Source: a virus. From it: a stretch of DNA of 23,513 nucleotides. How positions within the stretch are numbered: the first letter of the stretch is position 1; the number at the start of each line of letters is the position of its first letter. Below the pieces are notes generated by a model, which ran no database searches, was not told the DNA's origin, and saw only the letters and a list, made by a program, of their open reading frames with translations. Positions 1,126 to 11,722 of the stretch are shown here, piece by piece. A program made the position numbers and the translations under genes. Location: positions 1 through 23,513 of the IMG/VR virus record IMGVR_UViG_3300046694_000612; one strand, written 5' to 3'.

Positions 1126-1154
1126 TTGAGTGCCTCTGTTGAATGTGGTATAAC
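1126..1154 (+). promoter_or_regulatory. Candidate sigma-70 promoter of the cargo operon
   Basis: TTGAGT (1126-1131), a 17-base spacer and TATAAC (1149-1154) closely match the -35/-10 consensus with ideal spacing, just after the integrase stop. Transcription would start near 1161. That places the ATG at 1143 inside the promoter, so the methyltransferase probably starts at 1182. Confidence 0.55.
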
Positions 1155-1181
1155 GCCGTAATTTTTGAGCGGGTTTTTTTA

Positions 1182-2234
1182 ATGGAAGCTTCAGTCGCTG
1201 ATATGGCTATAGTAAAAAATAAGACTGAAGGCAATGGCCTCTCATCTGATTCACATAAAGTTGTTAGTTTATTCTGTGGTGCGGGTGGTCTCGATTTGGG
1301 ATTTACCAATGCCGGTTTTGAAGTTTGCTACGCCGCAGATTATGACGCGGCTGCAATAAAAACATACAATAGAAATCATCCGGGGGATCTAGGGCGCGTC
1401 GTTGATCTCTTGGCCACAACTGTAGAACAGCTGTGTGATTCTATTGTCGATACGTGTGGTGAGAGTCCGGAAATTTCCGGGATCATTGGCGGACCTCCTT
1501 GCCAAGGTTTTTCTCGCGGTAATGCAGGGCGTCATGCAGACGATCCACGAAATCAATTAGCGCTCAAATATGCAGCTATCGTAAATTCTTTTTATGAGAA
1601 ATTTGGGCTGAAATTTTTTGTGTTTGAAAACGTGCCGGAGATACGGGCTCAGAAGAATAAAAGTTTTCTGGAAGGGTTGCGTAAAGAACTTTCGCAAAAC
1701 TTTAATATTTATGAGCAAGAGTTGAATGCCAGTAATTACCAAGTTGCTCAAGCTCGCCGACGTTTATTTATAGTTGGTGTGTGTAAGAGCTCTGGTGTCA
1801 GTGAATTTATATTTCCTGCGCCATCCCCATTGAGGGGAAAGGTCGTCAGTGATGTCATAAGTGACTTGCCCGATCCCGTATACCTATCTAGCAGTTTGGT
1901 CGCAGAATCGATTCCGTATCACCAGAACCACTGGACATCCCGACCGAAATCAAAGCGTTTTGAAACCGGAATAATGCCTGTCGGTGGCCGTTCATTTATT
2001 CAATTGGACTGGAAGAAGCCGAGCAGGACGGTAGCATATGGAAATCGTGAGATACACGTGCACCCAAATGGTAAGCGCCGTCTGAGCATCTATGAGGCTC
2101 TACAGTTGCAAGGTTTTCCTTTCAATTATGTGCTGGAAGGAAACATGAGTCAGCAAGTTAAGCAGGTTTCGAACGCGGTTCCGCCGCCGGTAGCGGAAAG
2201 AATTGCAGAGTCTATAATGGAACAAGTACTGTAA
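1182..2234 (+). CDS. DNA (cytosine-5) methyltransferase of the cargo module
   Basis: Transfers a methyl group from S-adenosylmethionine to C5 of cytosine in a specific DNA sequence. From the start at 1182 (350 residues) the family motifs appear in order: motif I FCGAGG (about 31-36), motif IV GGPPCQGFS with catalytic Cys107, motif VI ENV (149-151), motif VIII QARRRLF (190-196), motif IX (LQGFPFNY) and motif X (VSNAVPPPVA) near the C-terminus. An in-frame ATG at 1143 would add 13 residues but lies between the -35 and -10 of the predicted promoter, so 1182 is preferred; 1203 is also possible. The ribosome-binding site is weak. Base composition is clearly AT-richer than the phage genes, which suggests acquisition from elsewhere. 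It is followed after 12 bases by the GHKL ATPase gene, so it is probably the modification or self-marking part of a defence module. The target sequence cannot be read from the protein. Confidence 0.93.
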   Translation: MEASVADMAIVKNKTEGNGLSSDSHKVVSLFCGAGGLDLGFTNAGFEVCYAADYDAAAIKTYNRNHPGDLGRVVDLLATTVEQLCDSIVDTCGESPEISGIIGGPPCQGFSRGNAGRHADDPRNQLALKYAAIVNSFYEKFGLKFFVFENVPEIRAQKNKSFLEGLRKELSQNFNIYEQELNASNYQVAQARRRLFIVGVCKSSGVSEFIFPAPSPLRGKVVSDVISDLPDPVYLSSSLVAESIPYHQNHWTSRPKSKRFETGIMPVGGRSFIQLDWKKPSRTVAYGNREIHVHPNGKRRLSIYEALQLQGFPFNYVLEGNMSQQVKQVSNAVPPPVAERIAESIMEQVL

Positions 2235-2246
2235 GGCGAGTATGTT

Positions 2247-4223
2247 ATGGAAGACGTAGCTGAAAACAGTAAACGTTCCGAGGAGGAAGTTGCTCTTCGG
2301 AAGCAGTTGTCGGAAACAAAGCTCTACGATAAGCCTGTAGTAGCGACGTTGAAAACTAATGAGCGGGTTTTTGCTCGCATTACTGATGGGATCTATCGTG
2401 AGCCGGCGTCTGCGATTCGTGAATTAATCGCGAACTCCTACGATGCCGATGCCACTGAGGTAAGGGTTTTTACGGATGCACCGCGCTTTTCTCAAATTGT
2501 GGTCCGTGATAACGGTCATGGACTAGATGAAAGTACACTGGCGCATATCATTTGTAATATCGGCGGTAGCTTAAAAAGAAGTAATGATGGTAAGGAGCAC
2601 GAGGTTACAAGTATATCTGATAAGAACCTCAGTCCCAATGGTCGGCGCTTAATCGGGAAGCTAGGTATCGGATTGTTCTCGGTTTCTCAAATTACCCATC
2701 ATATTGTTATCGTTTCGAAGGTTAAAGGTGCGGATAAGCGCTTAGTCTGCGACATTATCCTTCGTCCGCAGTCTGAAGTTGTTGCGGATGTTGATGAAGA
2801 TACGTATGTAACCGGTCGAGCTGAAATCACGTATGTGCCGGCGGAAGATTTAGATCATTCGGGTACTGAAATTACGTTGTTGAAGGTGAGGCCGTTCGTA
2901 AGAGAAAGTTTGCAGTCAAAGCTAACCTGGAATGCTATACAGTATCAGCGGCAAGCAGAGGATGAACCCGAAGAAGTCGAGATTGATCTTGAGGAAGATT
3001 TAAACGATTTGCCTCGTGTTCCGGACTTTCATATAGGTGAAGTAGATCCATTAGACAGTGAGGGGCTCATAACTAATGCACTGCTGCCCTGGCTGCCAAC
3101 AGACAAGCCTTTAGAAAAGTTTAAGAAGCTTGTCTCAAAGGTTTCCGAGTTGACTGTTGATGCTAAGCGCGGAAACGTCAAGCTTAAAGAGTCCATAGAT
3201 TCTTATTTGAGAATGATATGGTCGATTAGTCTCTCTGTGCCAGTACAGTATATCGAAAAGCATCCATTTGATGTCTGTGCCTCTGATGAGGTTGATGTTT
3301 ATCTTATTAGTAATGGCGGTCGAGGAAGTTCTGCGACTAAGGTAGAGCTTTCTCCCGGGGAAACACTCGAGTCAAAACTGAAGTTATGTGCCAAGCGTAC
3401 TGAAAGCGACTTGCCTTTCGTTGTGTTAATCGATGATGTCGAATTGCGTAGGCCAATTTCTATTGCTGGAGAGGCAGATAAGAAAAAAGGGCAGCTTATG
3501 TTTGTTGGGGGCGCAAATCCGTCTTTAAGCAGCGTGCCGGAGAGTTATAGAGGTGGGGAGCTCGAATTCGAATACTACATGCTCTGGAACCATAAAGTAG
3601 TTCCGTTAGAGCATAATGGCTGTCTGATCCGCATCAACGGAGCGAGTGGGACTCCGTTTGATCCTAGCTTTCTTGATTATCAGATTTCTGAACAGACCCG
3701 TCTGAGGCAACTGACTGGCGAAGTATTTGCCATAAAAGGGCTTGATCCTGCGCTGAATATCGATCGAGAGTCTTATAACGTCGCCCACCCTCATTTTCAG
3801 TACCTGAAGAAGTGGATGCACAATGCACTTCGACAGTTTATGAGTAAAAATAAAGCTTTGAGCAAGGGAAATGCTGCTGAAAAAAACAAGGAGAAAGTAG
3901 ATCAGATTAAGGCAGATATTAATTCTGTAGTTAAAGTCTTTACCGACACTAAGCCTGTTAAGTTCTATTCTTCGTCTAAGGGAGAGCAGCCGTCCCTGCT
4001 AGATTCCCCTGGTACAATTAATATTGATCGCGGAGTTGTTTTTTCGTCTGTTCGGCCATCCTCTAGTACCGAGAAAGCGCGAATAGCGCTTCACGAGGAA
4101 AAGCTCATTGCTGTTGCAAATATCCTAGAGTCCTACGGGCTCTTATCCAGCTTGAGTTCCGCCGAAGTAGAAAAGCTCATAAGTGCAATCGGTAACATAT
4201 TTCTTCTGGATGTTAAGAAATGA
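2247..4223 (+). CDS. GHKL (MutL/MORC/Hsp90-fold) ATPase, cargo module
   Basis: Protein of 658 residues with an N-terminal GHKL ATPase domain. The N-box is RELIANSYDADA with Glu59, Asn63 and Asp66. The G1 box is DNGHGL (88-93) and the G2 box is GKLGIGLFS (137-145). In this fold ATP binding usually drives dimerisation of the N-terminal domains, so the protein is likely an ATP-gated clamp or switch. The middle contains an acidic stretch (about 230-260). The C-terminal two thirds have no domain I recognise, and no nuclease or helicase motif is evident. The ATG at 2247 follows AAGGCGAG at suitable spacing. Its stop overlaps the next gene by four bases (ATGA), so the two are likely made together. 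MutL/MORC-like ATPases beside DNA methyltransferases are known from restriction-modification-like systems (Iyer and colleagues on prokaryotic MORC relatives). A role in restriction or sensing is inferred from that. Confidence 0.85.
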   Translation: MEDVAENSKRSEEEVALRKQLSETKLYDKPVVATLKTNERVFARITDGIYREPASAIRELIANSYDADATEVRVFTDAPRFSQIVVRDNGHGLDESTLAHIICNIGGSLKRSNDGKEHEVTSISDKNLSPNGRRLIGKLGIGLFSVSQITHHIVIVSKVKGADKRLVCDIILRPQSEVVADVDEDTYVTGRAEITYVPAEDLDHSGTEITLLKVRPFVRESLQSKLTWNAIQYQRQAEDEPEEVEIDLEEDLNDLPRVPDFHIGEVDPLDSEGLITNALLPWLPTDKPLEKFKKLVSKVSELTVDAKRGNVKLKESIDSYLRMIWSISLSVPVQYIEKHPFDVCASDEVDVYLISNGGRGSSATKVELSPGETLESKLKLCAKRTESDLPFVVLIDDVELRRPISIAGEADKKKGQLMFVGGANPSLSSVPESYRGGELEFEYYMLWNHKVVPLEHNGCLIRINGASGTPFDPSFLDYQISEQTRLRQLTGEVFAIKGLDPALNIDRESYNVAHPHFQYLKKWMHNALRQFMSKNKALSKGNAAEKNKEKVDQIKADINSVVKVFTDTKPVKFYSSSKGEQPSLLDSPGTINIDRGVVFSSVRPSSSTEKARIALHEEKLIAVANILESYGLLSSLSSAEVEKLISAIGNIFLLDVKK

Positions 4224-5458
4224 TAAGCATGGATCGCGGGGACGAGTTAGACTCAGGGCTTGGTTACGAAGATGTAAGCCATGCGAAAGTCATTCTCAAG
4301 ACAAAATTTTTGCCGTGGCATAAACCACGTAAGCAATTTATTCGCAGTAATCAATGGAATAGTGTAGTCGGTCGCTTGATAGATGCCCTTGATTTAAAGT
4401 CTAAATCAAGGTCGTTAGAGTATTTGAGTCTGCCTGGGCCGGACTTGCTTGATGTTAGGGCGTTATATTCAACATGTGCGGACAAGGGGGTGCGTATAAG
4501 GTTTACGGGCCTGAATGCAATCCCTGTGGAGGATAAAGAGTCTACGATGGATCAGCTTATCTCTCTTGATGAGCTCCGTGGACTAGAGTTTATAGACCCA
4601 TCCTCTGGGGTTCATCAAGATCAGCTCGAAAGGTTGTCGAACAAGAGCTCGATTGCATATCAAAGCGTCATTAAGCAAGCACCAACGTATGATGTAGTGA
4701 ATATTGATCTTTGTGGGAGTTTTTTGGAGTCGCCTCCCAATGACTCACAAAGTAATTATTATGAAGCGCTTTTTGAGCTTCTCAGGTATCAGGCTGATAA
4801 TCGGAATGAGGATTGGCTATTTTTCATTACCACTCGCACTAATGAAGATATGGTGCATGCTGATACGTTCGAGCGTTTTGTAAAGGTTCTGGAAGATATC
4901 TTCGAGTTGGATGAAGCGGTTTATGAAAAGTGTAAAGAGCTAAATGTATTTGGTGCAGATGTGTTGGTTGATCGGAAGATTGACACGTCGAAGGTTGATA
5001 GTGTTTCTTTTAATAATCTAGTAAGTGCAGGGATTGGAAAGTGGGTTTTGAGCGCGTTGACTTCCCAGACACCAGCTTATAAATCTAAAATGCTCAAACT
5101 GTTTGGCTATAACGTCAAGCTTGACCCGAAATCTACATGTGACATGATTTCATTCGGATTTTGGTGCACCAAGATGCCAACTAAAGCGGTTGATGCGTTT
5201 GGATTGGCAGCTGGTGGTGTTAATTTGCAAAGCGAAGATGCTGAGGTCGCGGTAAGTAAGTGCAGAATATCGGTTGTTGAATCGATCTCTAAGATTGTAG
5301 ACGTGGATCAGCATCTTTCGAATGATGAGGCGTTTGAAGAAGCACTAACATCGTCTATGAAACTGATGAAGTCTGCAAGGTATGATGTGGATTCATATGT
5401 TGAGTGGGCAAGAAAAGAACATGCCAAAGTCATTCAGCTTTTAGCTGCTCGTGGCTAA
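4220..5458 (+). CDS. Unrecognised 412-residue protein, third gene of the cargo module
   Basis: I do not recognise a named family. The gene overlaps the ATPase gene by ATGA and ends the cargo operon. The N-terminal part has a striking LPWHKPRKQFIR segment (about 32-43). It is followed by LEYLSLPGPDLLDVR, then GVRIRFTGLN, and later YDVVNIDLCGSF. This strand/loop/acidic pattern resembles a Rossmann-type fold such as a degenerate methyltransferase, but I see no clear SAM-binding glycine loop and no catalytic (D/N)PPY or PCQ motif. No PD-(D/E)XK, HNH, PLD or TIR signature is visible and there is no membrane segment. The C-terminal 150 residues are rich in Ser, Asp and Val and look helical. It is AT-rich like its two partners. 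By position it could be the effector, the specificity factor or a partner of the ATPase; the sequence does not decide. Confidence 0.8.
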   Translation: MISMDRGDELDSGLGYEDVSHAKVILKTKFLPWHKPRKQFIRSNQWNSVVGRLIDALDLKSKSRSLEYLSLPGPDLLDVRALYSTCADKGVRIRFTGLNAIPVEDKESTMDQLISLDELRGLEFIDPSSGVHQDQLERLSNKSSIAYQSVIKQAPTYDVVNIDLCGSFLESPPNDSQSNYYEALFELLRYQADNRNEDWLFFITTRTNEDMVHADTFERFVKVLEDIFELDEAVYEKCKELNVFGADVLVDRKIDTSKVDSVSFNNLVSAGIGKWVLSALTSQTPAYKSKMLKLFGYNVKLDPKSTCDMISFGFWCTKMPTKAVDAFGLAAGGVNLQSEDAEVAVSKCRISVVESISKIVDVDQHLSNDEAFEEALTSSMKLMKSARYDVDSYVEWARKEHAKVIQLLAARG

Positions 5459-5767: not shown

Positions 5768-6528
5768 GCGGCCTCCTGATCAGGTAGTGGAGAGCGCTTC
5801 GAATGCGCTCGCAGCCACGACTGGAACCTGTCCGTTGCCAATGGCCTTAAGCCGGTCCACCCGATGGGCCACCCCATCAGCCACTCGGCCCATTCCGGGT
5901 TCAGATGACCACCATCCAGAGCCATCACGGCGTGATCCAGGCGATCGTTCGAACGGTCGGCCCCGGATCGGCGAGTCAGTGCGGCAGGGGAGGATCCCTT
6001 TGCCATGCTCGCCACTGGCGTTGGCCATCGTCTGGTCGGCGTCTTCCGCGATGAGCCAGATCCGGTCTCGCTGATGAGGCGCGCCGAAGTCAGCCGCTCC
6101 GATAACACCCCATCGCGCGTCATACCCCATTTCGGCAAGATCACCGAGCACCACGGCAAGTCCTCTTCCCACAAGCAGTGGTGAGTTCTCCAGTTCGACG
6201 TAGCGCGGTCGTACCTCATCGGTAATTCGTGCCATCTGTCGCCACAGTCCGGAGCGGGCGCCGGCGAGGCCAAGCCCGTTACCGGCGGCCGAGATGTCCT
6301 GGCAAGGAAATCCTCCCGAAACCACGTCAACAAGCCCTTTCCATGGTCGGCCGTCAAAACTGCACACGTCAGACCAAATTGGGAAAGCCGGGAGCACGCC
6401 ATCGGTTTGTCGTTGCGCCAGAATTTGTGCTGCGTAGGCATCACGCTCAACGGCGCAGACTGTGCGCCAGCCGAGGAGGTGGCCGCCGAGTATTCCGCCA
6501 CCAGCGCCTGCGAAAAGAGCCAGCTCAT
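5764..6528 (-). CDS. Nested overlapping frame inside the phage methyltransferase gene
   Basis: A 254-codon frame, +1 relative to the methyltransferase, with no stop along its length. Its ATG (6528) lies eight bases after GGAGG and directly after the stop of the upstream gene. Its TGA forms an ATGA overlap with prtN, the coupling style of this operon. The protein is not random-looking. LTWFREDFLARTS (67-79), CGDRWHELPMRYDRATSNWR (95-114), LPKWGMTRDG (131-140), RWPTPVAS (167-174) and LNPEWAEWLMGWPIGWTGL (209-227) are blocks I recall from proteins encoded next to, or annotated as, phage cytosine methyltransferases. The 'NPxWxEWLMGWPxGWT' block is very widespread in phages. Function is unknown. 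Alternatives are that it is only translated through frameshifting with the methyltransferase, or that it is an unexpressed overprinted frame. Residues 1-60 look least family-like, so the true start may be internal. Confidence 0.6.
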   Translation of the reverse strand: MSWLFSQALVAEYSAATSSAGAQSAPLSVMPTQHKFWRNDKPMACSRLSQFGLTCAVLTADHGKGLLTWFREDFLARTSRPPVTGLASPAPAPDCGDRWHELPMRYDRATSNWRTHHCLWEEDLPWCSVILPKWGMTRDGVLSERLTSARLISETGSGSSRKTPTRRWPTPVASMAKGSSPAALTRRSGADRSNDRLDHAVMALDGGHLNPEWAEWLMGWPIGWTGLRPLATDRFQSWLRAHSKRSPLPDQEAA

Positions 6529-6532
6529 TCAC
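5780..6532 (-). CDS. dcm: Phage DNA (cytosine-5) methyltransferase, short form
   Basis: A 250-residue C5-cytosine methyltransferase from the phage early operon, distinct from the cargo enzyme. Motif I is FAGAGGG (7-13), motif IV is GGFPCQDIS with catalytic Cys77, motif VI is ENS (115-117), motif VIII is QRDRIW (154-159) and motif X is IGNGQVPVVA (231-240). The segment between motifs VIII and X is only about 70 residues, so the target-recognition region is very short or degenerate and activity is uncertain. The start is GTG at 6532-6530, overlapping the TGA of the upstream gene (GTGA). GGAGG lies only four bases upstream of it and fits the nested ATG at 6528 better. A likely role is self-protection of phage DNA from host restriction. 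Nearly the whole gene is overlapped in the +1 frame by a second apparently real coding sequence. Confidence 0.85.
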   Translation of the reverse strand: MNELALFAGAGGGILGGHLLGWRTVCAVERDAYAAQILAQRQTDGVLPAFPIWSDVCSFDGRPWKGLVDVVSGGFPCQDISAAGNGLGLAGARSGLWRQMARITDEVRPRYVELENSPLLVGRGLAVVLGDLAEMGYDARWGVIGAADFGAPHQRDRIWLIAEDADQTMANASGEHGKGILPCRTDSPIRGRPFERSPGSRRDGSGWWSSEPGMGRVADGVAHRVDRLKAIGNGQVPVVAASAFEALSTT

Positions 6533-8986: not shown

Positions 8987-9577
8987 CTAGGCTGCATGCG
9001 CGGCAGGAGTCGCCACGGCAGCCAAGTGGTTGATGGATTCGGCTACTTGCTCATAGATCTCGGCATCGCTACCGCACACGGTGAAGCACTTTGTGCGCGG
9101 ACGTTTCACGCCGACGCTCATGATGGTGGTGACGCCTGGGCGTGTTTGGGTGCGATGGATGGCGACGTGGATGGGGAGATCGAAACCCATGTCTAGACTC
9201 AACACGCCACCGGTACGCACAAGCTCGAAAATCTGCTGTCGGTGCTCGACATCAAACTGTGCGTATTGGCGGCTTGCATGAGGAGGCGTCAGGCGCTCAG
9301 CCGTATTGCTGGGATCTACCGGACCATTTGCAATTTCTTCAATGAAATCGGCGAGTTTCAGGTGCATCCTTTTCTCGTTCTTCAAGGTCAGCGAATGGCG
9401 TTCGCTGCCGAGTTCGACCGTGAAGTAAGTATCAGATGCATTGCGCTCCACCTTGAGGCGGAACGTCAGTGCTTCGCGCTTAGGTGTCGAACGCAGGACG
9501 TGGCTGAAGGTCTCGGTTAGGTTGACCTGGGCGTTCAGCAGTTGCAGGGTGCGGTTGTCGATTTTGAACTTGTTCAT
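8987..9577 (-). CDS. Phage early protein of unknown function (196 aa)
   Basis: A soluble 196-residue protein with no domain I recognise. The first half is basic and mixed strand/helix (TFRLKVERNASDTYFTVEL). The second has alternating hydrophobic strands ending in an Ala-rich tail. The ATG overlaps the stop of the upstream gene (ATGA). As the second gene after PL it would be among the first made after induction. Confidence 0.75.
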   Translation of the reverse strand: MNKFKIDNRTLQLLNAQVNLTETFSHVLRSTPKREALTFRLKVERNASDTYFTVELGSERHSLTLKNEKRMHLKLADFIEEIANGPVDPSNTAERLTPPHASRQYAQFDVEHRQQIFELVRTGGVLSLDMGFDLPIHVAIHRTQTRPGVTTIMSVGVKRPRTKCFTVCGSDAEIYEQVAESINHLAAVATPAAHAA

Positions 9578-9753
9578 GCTGCGTGCCCTCCGCCATTCGG
9601 ATCGAAGGGGGCTGGGTCGTAGCTTTTCGCGACAAGCTTAGGTTTGTTGTTGTGGATGACGATCAGGCAGCCGGTGGTGAATTGCAGCTGCTCGATCAGT
9701 TTCCGATTGCTGGTGCACGCCGGATGAACGTGCAGGGTGGCTGTGGTGTGCAT
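9574..9753 (-). CDS. Small first gene of the leftward operon (59 aa)
   Basis: The open frame extends to 9789, but the ATG at 9753 has GAGG six bases upstream and lies downstream of the predicted PL start point near 9782, so it is the supported start. The product has a His-rich N-terminus (MHTTATLHVHPAC), a hydrophobic strand LIVIHNNKPKLVAKSYD and a Gly-rich end. The family is not recognised. Its stop overlaps the next gene by ATGA. Confidence 0.6.
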   Translation of the reverse strand: MHTTATLHVHPACTSNRKLIEQLQFTTGCLIVIHNNKPKLVAKSYDPAPFDPNGGGHAA

Positions 9754-9788
9754 GATATTGCCTCGCTCTGTGGTGGAAGAGTGAGGCA

Positions 9789-9817
9789 AATATCACGCAT
9801 TGTGTTTATCGTGTCAA
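9789..9817 (-). promoter_or_regulatory. PL-like leftward early promoter
   Basis: Read on the minus strand: a perfect TTGACA -35 (9817-9812), a 17-base spacer and a GATATT -10 (9794-9789). It lies between the end of cI and the first leftward gene, and both promoter boxes are covered by repressor-operator motifs. Confidence 0.7.
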
Positions 9818-9830
9818 CACGAAATGTGAT
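9792..9830. promoter_or_regulatory. OL: two repressor operators
   Basis: Two copies of ATCAC-N5-GTGTT(T/G)A. One is at 9792-9808 (plus strand) over the -10. The other is at 9814-9830 (minus strand) over the -35. Their centres are about 22 bp apart. The same motif occurs at the cI/cro promoters, so these are probably operators for CI and Cro. Confidence 0.65.
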
Positions 9831-10549
9831 TACTCTGGTTTGTCGTGCGCAAACCGTGATGATTTCAGTATTCCGCCTACCAGATGGACCTTGGTTACCA
9901 AATTTTGATCGAGATGGAGCGGGCTATGGTCCTGGTTAACGCTGTCGAATCGATATACCCCGTCTCGCAGGTAAATGAACTCTTTGATCATTGAGCGGCC
10001 ATCTTGAGTCTGCACCATGACCTCATCTCCAGTGACGAACACTTTATTGGGTTCAATGAGAACGTATTCGCCGCTTTTGATTCGTGGATGCATGCTATCG
10101 CCAATGACTCTAAGGCCATAAGCATTGGGGTCATCACTATAGATGTGGAGATACCCATCTCCATGACCAACTGGGAAGTCCAGCGCCTCAAAGAATCCAT
10201 CCATCCCTAGCTTTGCTGTGCCTACCACGGGCACCACTCCTTCCTTCGTAGGGCCAATTGGCCTAACAACGCTTCCCGTTTTCAATGGTGGCAGGGTCGA
10301 GGGGTGATGGGCTTGATTGGCTAATGCTGAAAAAATCTGTTGGGAGTCAGTGCCACTGATCAGCTCTGCGACCGAAACGCCTAAGGCAGGCGCAAGCAGT
10401 GTCAGATCTGCAAGATTTGGCTCTCTGAGATCACTCTCGTAGTTACCTATTCGCGACTGTGATGACCAGCCGCACTGTTCAGCCAAATTTTTCTGGCTGA
10501 AGCCTTTTTGTTTTCTGAGCCGCTTGATGCGGGAGCCTAAAGTTTCCAT
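9830..10549 (-). CDS. cI: LexA/S24-type phage repressor (CI)
   Basis: A 239-residue repressor that should hold the prophage silent by binding the operators on both sides of its gene. Residues 1-65 form a Cro/CI-type helix-turn-helix (SQKNLAEQCGWSSQSRIGNYE). Residues about 105-235 form an S24 peptidase domain with catalytic Ser152 (GDSMHP) and Lys189 (MIKEF). DNA damage would trigger self-cleavage through RecA. The usual Ala-Gly cleavage pair is replaced by Leu114-Gly115 in VPVVGTAKLG, at the expected 37 residues before the serine. No Shine-Dalgarno sequence precedes the ATG; the promoter boxes suggest a leaderless transcript, as for lambda cI from PRM. The gene is divergent from cro, and its 3' end abuts OL. 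Confidence 0.93.
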   Translation of the reverse strand: METLGSRIKRLRKQKGFSQKNLAEQCGWSSQSRIGNYESDLREPNLADLTLLAPALGVSVAELISGTDSQQIFSALANQAHHPSTLPPLKTGSVVRPIGPTKEGVVPVVGTAKLGMDGFFEALDFPVGHGDGYLHIYSDDPNAYGLRVIGDSMHPRIKSGEYVLIEPNKVFVTGDEVMVQTQDGRSMIKEFIYLRDGVYRFDSVNQDHSPLHLDQNLVTKVHLVGGILKSSRFAHDKPE

Positions 10550-10557
10550 TCGGAATT

Positions 10558-10586
10558 TTTATCACGTAATGAAATGTTTTTTTCTC
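10558..10586 (-). promoter_or_regulatory. PRM-like promoter of cI
   Basis: Read on the minus strand: GATAAA (10563-10558) as a -10, with only a poor -35 (GAGAAA) 17 bases upstream, as expected for a promoter that depends on bound repressor. The -10 ends eight bases before the cI ATG, so the mRNA would begin at or within a few bases of the start codon. Confidence 0.4.
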
Positions 10587-10621
10587 ACTTATCGTGTTGA
10601 AATAATCACGATACGTGTTTA
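10561..10621. promoter_or_regulatory. OR: three repressor operators between cI and cro
   Basis: Three copies of the ATCAC-N5-GTGTT(T/G)A motif: 10561-10577 (ATCAC half good, other half weak), 10584-10600 (CTCAC-N5-GTGTTGA) and 10605-10621 (ATCAC-N5-GTGTTTA). Centres are about 23 and 21 bp apart. The first covers the cI -10, the second the cro -35, and the third the spacer and first base of the cro -10. Confidence 0.6.
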
Positions 10622-10625
10622 GAGT
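10597..10625 (+). promoter_or_regulatory. PR-like promoter of cro
   Basis: TTGAAA (10597-10602), a 17-base spacer and TAGAGT (10620-10625). The predicted start is near 10632, giving a leader of about 20 bases that contains AAAAGGAG before the cro ATG at 10651. Confidence 0.65.
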
Positions 10626-10650
10626 GCGCCTATCAAAAGGAGCCAAGTTC

Positions 10651-10875
10651 ATGAATCGAATTGCCTGCCTCAGAAAGGAGGCACAGATAAAGCAAAGGGA
10701 TCTGGGTGAACTGCTTGGTTGGACCCAGACCAGGCTAAGTAATTACGAGTCTGGTCATAGGATGCCGGGGCTTAGTGAGTGCAGGGCAATCACCTCCGCC
10801 CTGAATCAGTTGGGGGCCACTTGCTCACTAGATGATGTTTTTCCTCCAGAGATTGAAACATCAAAAGCTGCTTAG
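10651..10875 (+). CDS. cro: Cro-like HTH regulator (74 aa)
   Basis: A small Cro/CI-type helix-turn-helix protein (IKQRDLGELLGWTQTRLSNY, about residues 9-28) divergent from cI, in the position of lambda cro. The frame is open back to 10615 by a TTG-type start, but the ATG at 10651 has AAAAGGAG nine bases upstream and sits downstream of the predicted PR start, so it is preferred. It probably represses PRM and tunes early transcription by binding the same operators as CI. The C-terminus is short and acidic (DDVFPPEIETSKAA). Confidence 0.8.
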   Translation: MNRIACLRKEAQIKQRDLGELLGWTQTRLSNYESGHRMPGLSECRAITSALNQLGATCSLDDVFPPEIETSKAA

Positions 10876-10899
10876 AAAAAAGGCGACCAAAAGGCCGCC
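10876..10899 (-). terminator. Leftward rho-independent terminator after cro
   Basis: On the minus strand GGCGGCC-TTTT-GGTCGCC is followed by a run of six T. The central G.U pair is stable only in the minus-strand RNA; in the plus strand it is an A/C mismatch with no T-run. It would stop leftward RNA coming from the cII side. Confidence 0.7.
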
Positions 10900-11203
10900 C
10901 AGTTCCTCCCGGCTCGCACCACCACAGCGCTGTCGGGTCGCGATAAAGATAGGCGGGCACACCACATGCTAACCACCTCCCTTTATCGCGCTTTTCCAAG
11001 GCATGGAGGCCTTGGTGTTGCTGCCTTTTCCACCACAGATTTGGCAGCTGTTGCGCCAGGGGTGAGCAACGGATTGCTCGCCCCGGCACGGTACCGGTGT
11101 CGATCTCTAAGATCTAGCCGGCGTTTGGGCCTCTTCAAGCCACGCGGCAAATGTATCACCACTGCATGTCGCGCGGCACTGGCAACTTATAAGGATTAAT
11201 GCC
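10900..11203. other. Structured non-coding region between cro and cII
   Basis: No convincing gene in about 300 bases. It holds a perfect 10-bp inverted repeat (10939-10948 with 10981-10990, extendable inward), a 7-bp perfect hairpin (10996-11002 with 11009-11015) and an 11-bp hairpin with one U.G pair favouring plus-strand RNA (11059-11069 with 11074-11084, loop CGGA). A 77-codon open frame starting at 10966 lacks a ribosome-binding site. The stretch could be a structured leader or a small RNA. Confidence 0.5.
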
Positions 11204-11722
11204 ATGAGCCGAATCGCTCTGAGTTCTATTCAGCGGGCGCAGCGGGAAGTTCTGCCGCTTGATCTCGCGCTTTACCATGCTGCTCGGGACTATCCCGGCG
11301 GCGCCGCTGCAATCGCCGCCACCACTGGCAGAAACGCCACCACACTGCAGCACAAACTCTCACCCACGCACCCGAGCCATACGGTGAACATTCAGGAGTT
11401 CGGCGAGATCCTGGAGCTGACCAAGGATCGCCGTATTCTGGATGCGGTGCATGCATTGGTCGGTGACACGACCTGGCAGGAACTGGCCGAGGCGTACACC
11501 AATGACATGCCCGAAACGTTGACCACCGGTATTGCTGAGTACTTTCGGCAGGTGGCGGATTTGGCTGATACCTGGGCTAAGAGCATCGGCGATGGGGTGG
11601 TGTCCGACGAGGAACTTGCCGCAATTCGCCTGCAGGTGTTTCGCGGGATACAGGGGCTGCTCGGAATGTTCAACCGCGCTGCGTATGTCAACCAGACAAC
11701 GCGGGGTGCTGAGCGTGGCTGA
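11204..11722 (+). CDS. Phage regulatory protein CII family
   Basis: A 172-residue protein resembling the phage regulatory CII family (Pfam Phage_CII), found downstream of cro in many Pseudomonas prophages. The N-terminal half carries LDLALYHAARDYPGGAAAIA and TTLQHKLSPTHPSHTVNIQE, the characteristic region of the family with a DNA-binding-like helix. The C-terminal half is helical. It probably controls the lysogeny/lysis choice, perhaps by activating cI transcription. AAGGA lies eight bases before the ATG. Its end overlaps the next gene's GTG start by eight bases. Confidence 0.8.
   Translation: MSRIALSSIQRAQREVLPLDLALYHAARDYPGGAAAIAATTGRNATTLQHKLSPTHPSHTVNIQEFGEILELTKDRRILDAVHALVGDTTWQELAEAYTNDMPETLTTGIAEYFRQVADLADTWAKSIGDGVVSDEELAAIRLQVFRGIQGLLGMFNRAAYVNQTTRGAERG

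Follow-up and report, generated by a model that had tools for sequence, protein, structure and literature searches.

Probable lambda-type operators and a candidate start-site-dependent leader hairpin in the immunity region of a Pseudomonas prophage

Do the five copies of a short inverted repeat that lie on either side of a repressor gene in a virus record of 23,513 bases serve as the operators of a genetic switch like that of phage lambda? A first-pass annotation of this record (hereafter the window, meaning the whole stretch analyzed) had proposed a lambda-like layout of two plus three sites, sharing the motif ATCAC-N5-GTGTT(T/G)A and lying over the promoter boxes of PL, PRM and PR. Our analysis indicates that the five sites are very probably the operators of a lambda-type switch. 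Such operators are of a familiar kind; the phage group that carries them is new. For this set of Pseudomonas prophages, on which a literature search did not find an operator paper, they provide an operator code that can be tested and that comes with heteroimmune relatives.

Genes, operator sites and promoters of the immunity region

The window is a prophage of Pseudomonas with a lambda-type CI/Cro switch. Pseudomonas genomes account for five of the seven similar-CI matches in the genome collection, and the remaining two (L006 and L007) are distant, match the helix-turn-helix (HTH) part only and were dropped from the locus set. The cI gene (positions 9830 to 10549, minus strand) encodes a 239-aa repressor with the two domains that mark the lambda type, namely an N-terminal HTH (HTH_3, 8e-13) and a C-terminal S24 domain (Peptidase_S24, 2.6e-14). 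Among the matches listed, CI is about 41-52% identical to coliphage CIs, mostly outside the DNA-binding part. A search of solved structures with CI returned HTH-level matches only, including the 434 repressor, and no full-length match at E 0.001. Divergent from cI is a gene for a 74-aa cro-like repressor (10651 to 10875, plus strand; HTH_3), the Cro candidate, whose HTH is 41% identical to that of CI over 51 aa. Since the HTHs of CI and Cro are related, both proteins can use common sites, and the sequences support the earlier suggestion that these two are the likely binders of the shared motif. The first gene of the PL operon (9574 to 9753, minus strand, ATG at 9753) encodes 59 aa and belongs to phrog_35204 / phrog_13491. 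To the right, a gene for a CII-like regulator (11204 to 11722, plus strand; Phage_CP76, phrog_101) is followed by a VapE-type primase gene, where lambda has O and P.

All five motif copies were found where the first-pass annotation had placed them. They do share a motif, the natural unit of which is a 15-bp dyad, AWCAC-N5-GTGWT, instead of the form first given. Under lambda naming, OL1 (9792 to 9806) is the site nearest the PL start; it is an exact dyad and touches the PL -10 box. OL2 (9816 to 9830) is likewise an exact dyad. It overlaps the PL -35 box and shares one base with the cI stop codon, the final one, in agreement with the earlier placement of the OL cluster downstream of cI. On the right, OR1 (10605 to 10619) is an exact dyad inside the PR spacer, and OR2 (10584 to 10598), with one mismatch, overlaps the PR -35 box. 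OR3 (10561 to 10575) is weak, with two mismatches, and has a good ATCAC half and another half that is conserved but off-consensus. The centers of OR3, OR2 and OR1 lie 19, 42 and 63 bp before cI. By dyad center, OR1 and OR2 are 21 bp apart, OR2 and OR3 23 bp, and OL1 and OL2 24 bp; the 21-23 bp claimed for both clusters therefore holds for OR and not for OL, where the spacing was misjudged because one of the two copies is inverted. A third OL site within two mismatches was not found near OL in the window. Two relatives (L004 and L027) carry a one-mismatch dyad in the 3' end of cI, centered at +675 from the cI start and 33 bp from OL2, which is a possible third left operator in these two phages.

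A promoter scan independently identified PL (TTGACA-17-GATATT, 9789 to 9817, minus strand; boxes 9817-9812 and 9794-9789; 10/12) and PR (TTGAAA-17-TAGAGT, 10597 to 10625, plus strand; boxes 10597-10602 and 10620-10625; 9/12), and the dyads overlap or adjoin these boxes. The +1 of PL is predicted from spacing to be the A at 9782. PRM was not picked up by the scan, and its location was set by analogy with lambda, with OR3 expected over its -10. The clusters were thus correctly said to lie over the boxes of PL and PR, while their position over PRM follows from the lambda analogy only.

In lambda (NC_001416), as in the window, cI and cro are divergent, cI is transcribed toward PL, OL lies over PL, there are three OR sites, and OL1 and OL2 are 24 bp apart. 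Measured from the first base of cI, its OR3, OR2 and OR1 are centered 19, 42 and 66 bp upstream, against 19, 42 and 63 bp here. Lambda differs in having three annotated left operators, where the window has two, and in carrying rexAB between cI and PL; rexAB is absent in the window, where OL2 reaches into the cI stop codon. The operator sequence also differs from that of lambda, and the CII of the window is of the Phage_CP76 family. The layout is consequently lambda-type in its OR distances, but two plus three is the count of phage 933W, lambda having three plus three. According to two reports on 933W (PMC3317979, PMC5977221), that phage has five naturally occurring 15-bp operator sites and lacks OL3. 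Its two left and three right sites match the layout of the window, and its motif differs from the one found here.

Operator conservation and the proposed switch

We weighed the possibility that the repeats reflect chance or shared ancestry, that is, promoter-like AT-rich sequence kept by descent. Had the motif of the first-pass annotation been retained as the unit, this explanation would have gained from it, as the motif is un-enriched at up to three mismatches (27 in the window vs 25.5 expected). It was set aside in favor of the dyad and a matrix. The exact dyad occurs three times in the window, each time at one of these operators, and a reversed control pattern does not occur at all. The matrix was trained on 36 distinct sites from relatives, leaving out the window and its 99% twin (L011), and is not a fully independent test because these relatives share ancestry with the window. 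It ranked the five sites first to fifth in the window, with scores of 30.0, 26.8, 23.1, 16.0 and 6.4, and the best scores in 100 Markov-1 random sequences had a mean of 7.6 and a maximum of 14.7. Four sites outscore every random control, which argues against chance. OR3 (6.4) falls inside the random range and rests on its position and conservation.

Conservation was assessed in 25 further CI-match loci (L001-L005, L011-L030), 22 of which share the HTH part of CI, with a best-segment identity of 53-99%. Each of these 22 has its OR sites at -63/-42/-19 from cI (1 bp off in L004 and L027) and its OL1 and OL2 24 bp apart directly after cI, and the arms of the OR and OL sites alike are kept; the OR3 of L028 has three mismatches. 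These relatives are homologous loci, so that the positional agreement is partly descent. The sequences of the sites speak differently. Across 23 loci (the window and these 22, leaving out L005, L029 and L030, which match only the C-terminal part of CI), the mean column identity of distinct sites in arms and center was 0.98/0.69 at OR1, 0.90/0.87 at OR2, 0.93/0.73 at OR3, 0.97/0.62 at OL2 and 0.99/0.72 at OL1. The arms are conserved and the central 5 bp vary in four of the five sites, which, together with the matrix scores, leaves chance or mere descent next to no credibility. OR2 displays little contrast. Its center is also invariant in most relatives, and the overlapping promoters may therefore be what holds OR2. 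Exact dyads were present in 18 of 21 related records searched whole, and 50 of their 51 matches fall in the immunity region, the sole exception being G017:46243; the reversed control gives three matches.

It might also be argued that only Cro, or some other regulator of phage or host, acts through the dyads and that CI uses other DNA, given that the Cro candidate is encoded divergently beside OR and has an HTH related to that of CI. That same relatedness leads one to expect common sites for the two proteins. In addition, OR3 and OR2 lie at exactly the lambda distances from cI, and the dyad is absent where only the C-terminal part of CI matches (loci L005, L029 and L030; records G019, G020 and W01, the last of L031). 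We regard this explanation as very unlikely. In each of the four repressor groups assessed (MIDKE, MSKQT, MKYLP and MKISD; one representative per group, read by eye), the group's own OL motif, of another sequence, recurs in its own OR.

With the five sites taken as operators for CI, the observed positions suggest how the switch would operate. CI dimers would most likely occupy OR1 and OR2, turning off PR, and OL1 and OL2, turning off PL. From OR2, centered at the same distance from the cI start codon as its lambda counterpart, CI would most likely activate PRM as well, and the position of OR3 is one from which Cro, or CI at a high level, would switch off PRM. If PRM has the lambda geometry, its start would coincide with the AUG and the cI message would be leaderless; no Shine-Dalgarno sequence is visible upstream of the cI AUG. 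The cI message of lambda is leaderless, and lambda CI activates from -42.

CI bound at both OL and OR could additionally loop the intervening 0.8 kb, as the first-pass annotation suggested, and the two sites per end with a same-face spacing of 21-24 bp speak for such a loop. The sequence comparison lends it no support: the distance between the centers of OL1 and OR1 is 813 bp in the window and varies from 796 to 842 bp in the 22 relatives, in steps that do not correspond to full turns of the helix. At about 0.8 kb, however, phasing would be unnecessary, and the varying distances are hence compatible with a loop. Also weighing against it, the repressor of 933W, the phage with the closest layout, is reported not to bind adjacent sites cooperatively (PMC3317979). 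We consider looping conceivable, at somewhat less than even chances.

The PL leader hairpin

PL lies directly after cI, and a scan of the 180 nt before the ATG found no terminator-like hairpin in any of 93 distinct repressor-adjacent leaders. Run-on transcripts of cI would in that case enter the lytic left operon. The PL leader contains an inverted repeat, TTGCCTC-A-CTCT-TCCACCAC-AGAG-C-GAGGCAA (9789 to 9758, minus strand). Its outer 5' arm, TTGCCTC (9783 to 9789, minus strand), sits upstream of the predicted +1, in the stretch that separates it from the -10 box, and PL-initiated RNA would therefore lack this arm. The outer 3' arm, GAGGCAA (9758 to 9764, minus strand), holds the Shine-Dalgarno sequence of the gene that starts at 9753, and the loop motif TTCCACCACAGA (9767 to 9778, minus strand) is repeated in the PR leader. 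In run-on messages only, the hairpin with its 5' arm would mask the Shine-Dalgarno sequence, and PL-started messages, without that arm, would be translated. Based on modeled folds, it appears reasonably probable that a start-site-dependent leader hairpin of this kind blocks translation of left genes in run-on repressor mRNA. The hairpin, if real, would allow a compact lambda-type switch to avoid lytic leak from a repressor transcript that has no terminator.

Leader RNA produced by read-through is predicted to fold with a dG of -33.3 kcal/mol (z -6.8; a value reached by none of 200 shuffles), and leader RNA started at 9782 with a dG of -4.9 kcal/mol (z -0.8), retaining the inner 4 bp. In all 93 repressor-adjacent leaders, PL RNA is predicted to leave the Shine-Dalgarno sequence more open (median 0.29) than read-through RNA does (median 0.00). 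In these same leaders, a -10-like hexamer and the purine that follows the arm are separated by 6 nt in 71 and 5 nt in 4; the hexamer was not found in 17, and an arm match is lacking in 1.

The persistence of the inner 4 bp in PL RNA would fit a different explanation, in which the inverted repeat binds a protein as a palindrome or forms the 5' stem of the PL message, and does not serve occlusion. So would the recurrence of the loop motif in the PR leader, and the retention of the loop and 3' side even behind a non-repressor gene. This explanation has greater difficulty with the outer arm, which tracks repressor adjacency and changes with compensation (e.g., L100, L374, L426 and L355), and we judge it less likely than not. 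The comparisons that bear on these two properties of the outer arm are as follows.

Leader loci were gathered by protein searches that supplied the best 80 loci of 260, 305, 261 and 191 relatives. One leader set comprised 196 loci with the left protein, 194 of them with enough upstream sequence, and 155 distinct leaders; the 196 include loci picked by a pattern that fixes part of the leader. The comparison of upstream genes used protein-search loci only, of which 155 were kept, 185 duplicates and 3 without an ATG were dropped, and 8 unclear cases were left out. Among the listed loci, a strong hairpin (dG <= -12.5) was present in 86 of 92 repressor-adjacent leaders vs 27 of 54 leaders with another gene. 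A tree was built from DNA downstream of the ATG for 146 leaders, on which the state of having a repressor gene directly upstream changes 19 times, and 17 tree-independent pairs were drawn. Four dG thresholds, including -13.5, were run and were not fixed beforehand. At -12.5, repressor adjacency went with a strong hairpin in 6.7 pairs and against it in 0.0 (median p 0.016); the corresponding values were 10.1 to 0.6 at -14.5 (median p 0.006) and 4.1 to 0.0 at -10.8 (median p 0.125).

The orientation of the upstream gene was also considered as a driver of hairpin strength and was rejected, as it fails per gene family and repressor adjacency fits better. Per listed locus, the median hairpin dG was -15.5 for 107 codirectional upstream genes vs -11.8 for 40 divergent ones (p 2e-8), and the folds of the PL RNA did not differ between the two (p 0.7). 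Per upstream-gene family (12 codirectional vs 25 divergent), the difference was not significant (p 0.088). On the tree, the split by orientation at -12.5 was 5.7 to 0.9 (p 0.125), which is weaker than that by repressor adjacency.

Covariation in the outer stem was 0.129 across 103 distinct leaders vs 0.101 +/- 0.006 in shuffled alignments (0 of 500 as high), and at most 0.094 when the partner was slid. Double-changed cells in the outer stem numbered 24 vs 12.4 +/- 2.5, a value that is also reached with the partner slid by +2 columns, and two other outer-stem measures were not beyond the shuffles (31/500 and 173/500). In an arm-exchange control covering 34 leaders whose 3' arms are off-consensus, the native 5' half paired better than foreign ones in 28 (p 2e-5), and the native 3' half in only 18 (p 0.22). 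Behind non-repressor (accessory) genes, the openness of the Shine-Dalgarno sequence was below 0.1 in read-through RNA in 44 of 53 leaders; it is still mostly closed there, and erosion of the hairpin behind such genes is therefore partial.

In other phages, genes lying between cI and PL are often defense-like (methyltransferase, PtuA, SIR2, KAP, NACHT and AbiC). Ten such genes were picked out of 54 for looking defense-like, and PADLOC matched seven of these ten. Examples of intervening genes are L083:112-1266, L424:302-1654, L373:324-1628, L375:294-1637, L439:301-1665 and L426:496-1662.

A similar case of occlusion is that of IS10 and external promoters. The ribosome-binding sites of the T4 genes e, soc, 49 and I-TevI are hidden in long early transcripts (PMC3014915). 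The PL leader would resemble the e type, in that longer upstream transcripts would form the predicted hairpin and the RNA from the nearer promoter would be without the 5' arm. Unlike in the T4 cases, the nearer promoter is here the early promoter PL, presumably controlled by CI, and it is the repressor's own transcript that arrives from upstream.

A structured RNA after cro and the motif of both early leaders

Between cro and the gene for the CII-like regulator lie 328 nt (10876 to 11203, plus strand) of untranslated RNA that is predicted to be structured (z -4.0; 0 of 100 shuffles as low). Rfam gave no matches, either at the gathering threshold over the whole window or at E up to 1 in 9700-11220. 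The 330 nt after cro were compared with the window in 20 relatives, leaving out L004 and L027; identity was 88-99% in 18 of these, 81% in L028 and 46% in L025. The element aligns across 13 loci with several repressor types (alignment A3, rows chosen by the analyst). At least one double change occurs in 40 of the 82 predicted pairs of this alignment, although covariation contributes little (-1.4 of -77.8 kcal/mol). This RNA could represent a new RNA family and, by analogy, is possibly a non-lambda antitermination system. Together with the leader hairpin, it sets the region apart as a new variant. Directly after cro, a terminator-like hairpin (10881 to 10900, minus strand) points leftward and would halt leftward transcripts, such as a message of the lambda PRE type, ahead of cI.

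The 12-mer of the PL leader, TTCCACCACAGA, recurs exactly once, in identical form, in a hairpin of the cro-cII RNA (11028 to 11039, plus strand). The shorter motif CACCACAG occurs five times in the window vs 0.9 expected, four of these occurrences being in the two early leaders and at the left-gene start. An RNA motif common to both early leaders is also known in lambda (annotated nutL and nutR), from which the motif shared here differs in both sequence and structure. The PR hairpin was found by regular expression in 77 of the 155 leaders, and these make up the set in which both loops are readable. PL loops with CCACC were paired with CCACC at PR in 35 of 35 cases and those with TTACC with TTACC in 24 of 24; a third PL form is accompanied by TTACC at PR in 11 cases, and six cases are other, unread at PL or not of the same form. 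In L250, a rare ATCAC loop form is present on both the PL and PR sides. One further sample (77 contigs) covered the TTACC form only. Clade linkage could partly explain this matching of PL and PR loops. As a tentative and, in our estimate, rather doubtful extension, the early-leader element (loop YACCACAG) of this large group of Pseudomonas phages with exchangeable immunity would probably be a nut-like antitermination site, and its PL copy would also serve as the core of a start-site-dependent hairpin that acts as a protein-free read-through lock. The immediate succession of cI and PL in these phages would call for such a lock.

Elsewhere in the window, a gene set adjoining the integrase (1143 to 5458, plus strand) encodes a C5 methyltransferase, a 658-aa protein with weak restriction-enzyme matches (4e-7) and a 412-aa protein without matches, and is a possible restriction-type defense cassette. 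A second C5 methyltransferase-like gene lies in the region of the left operon (5783 to 6532, minus strand).
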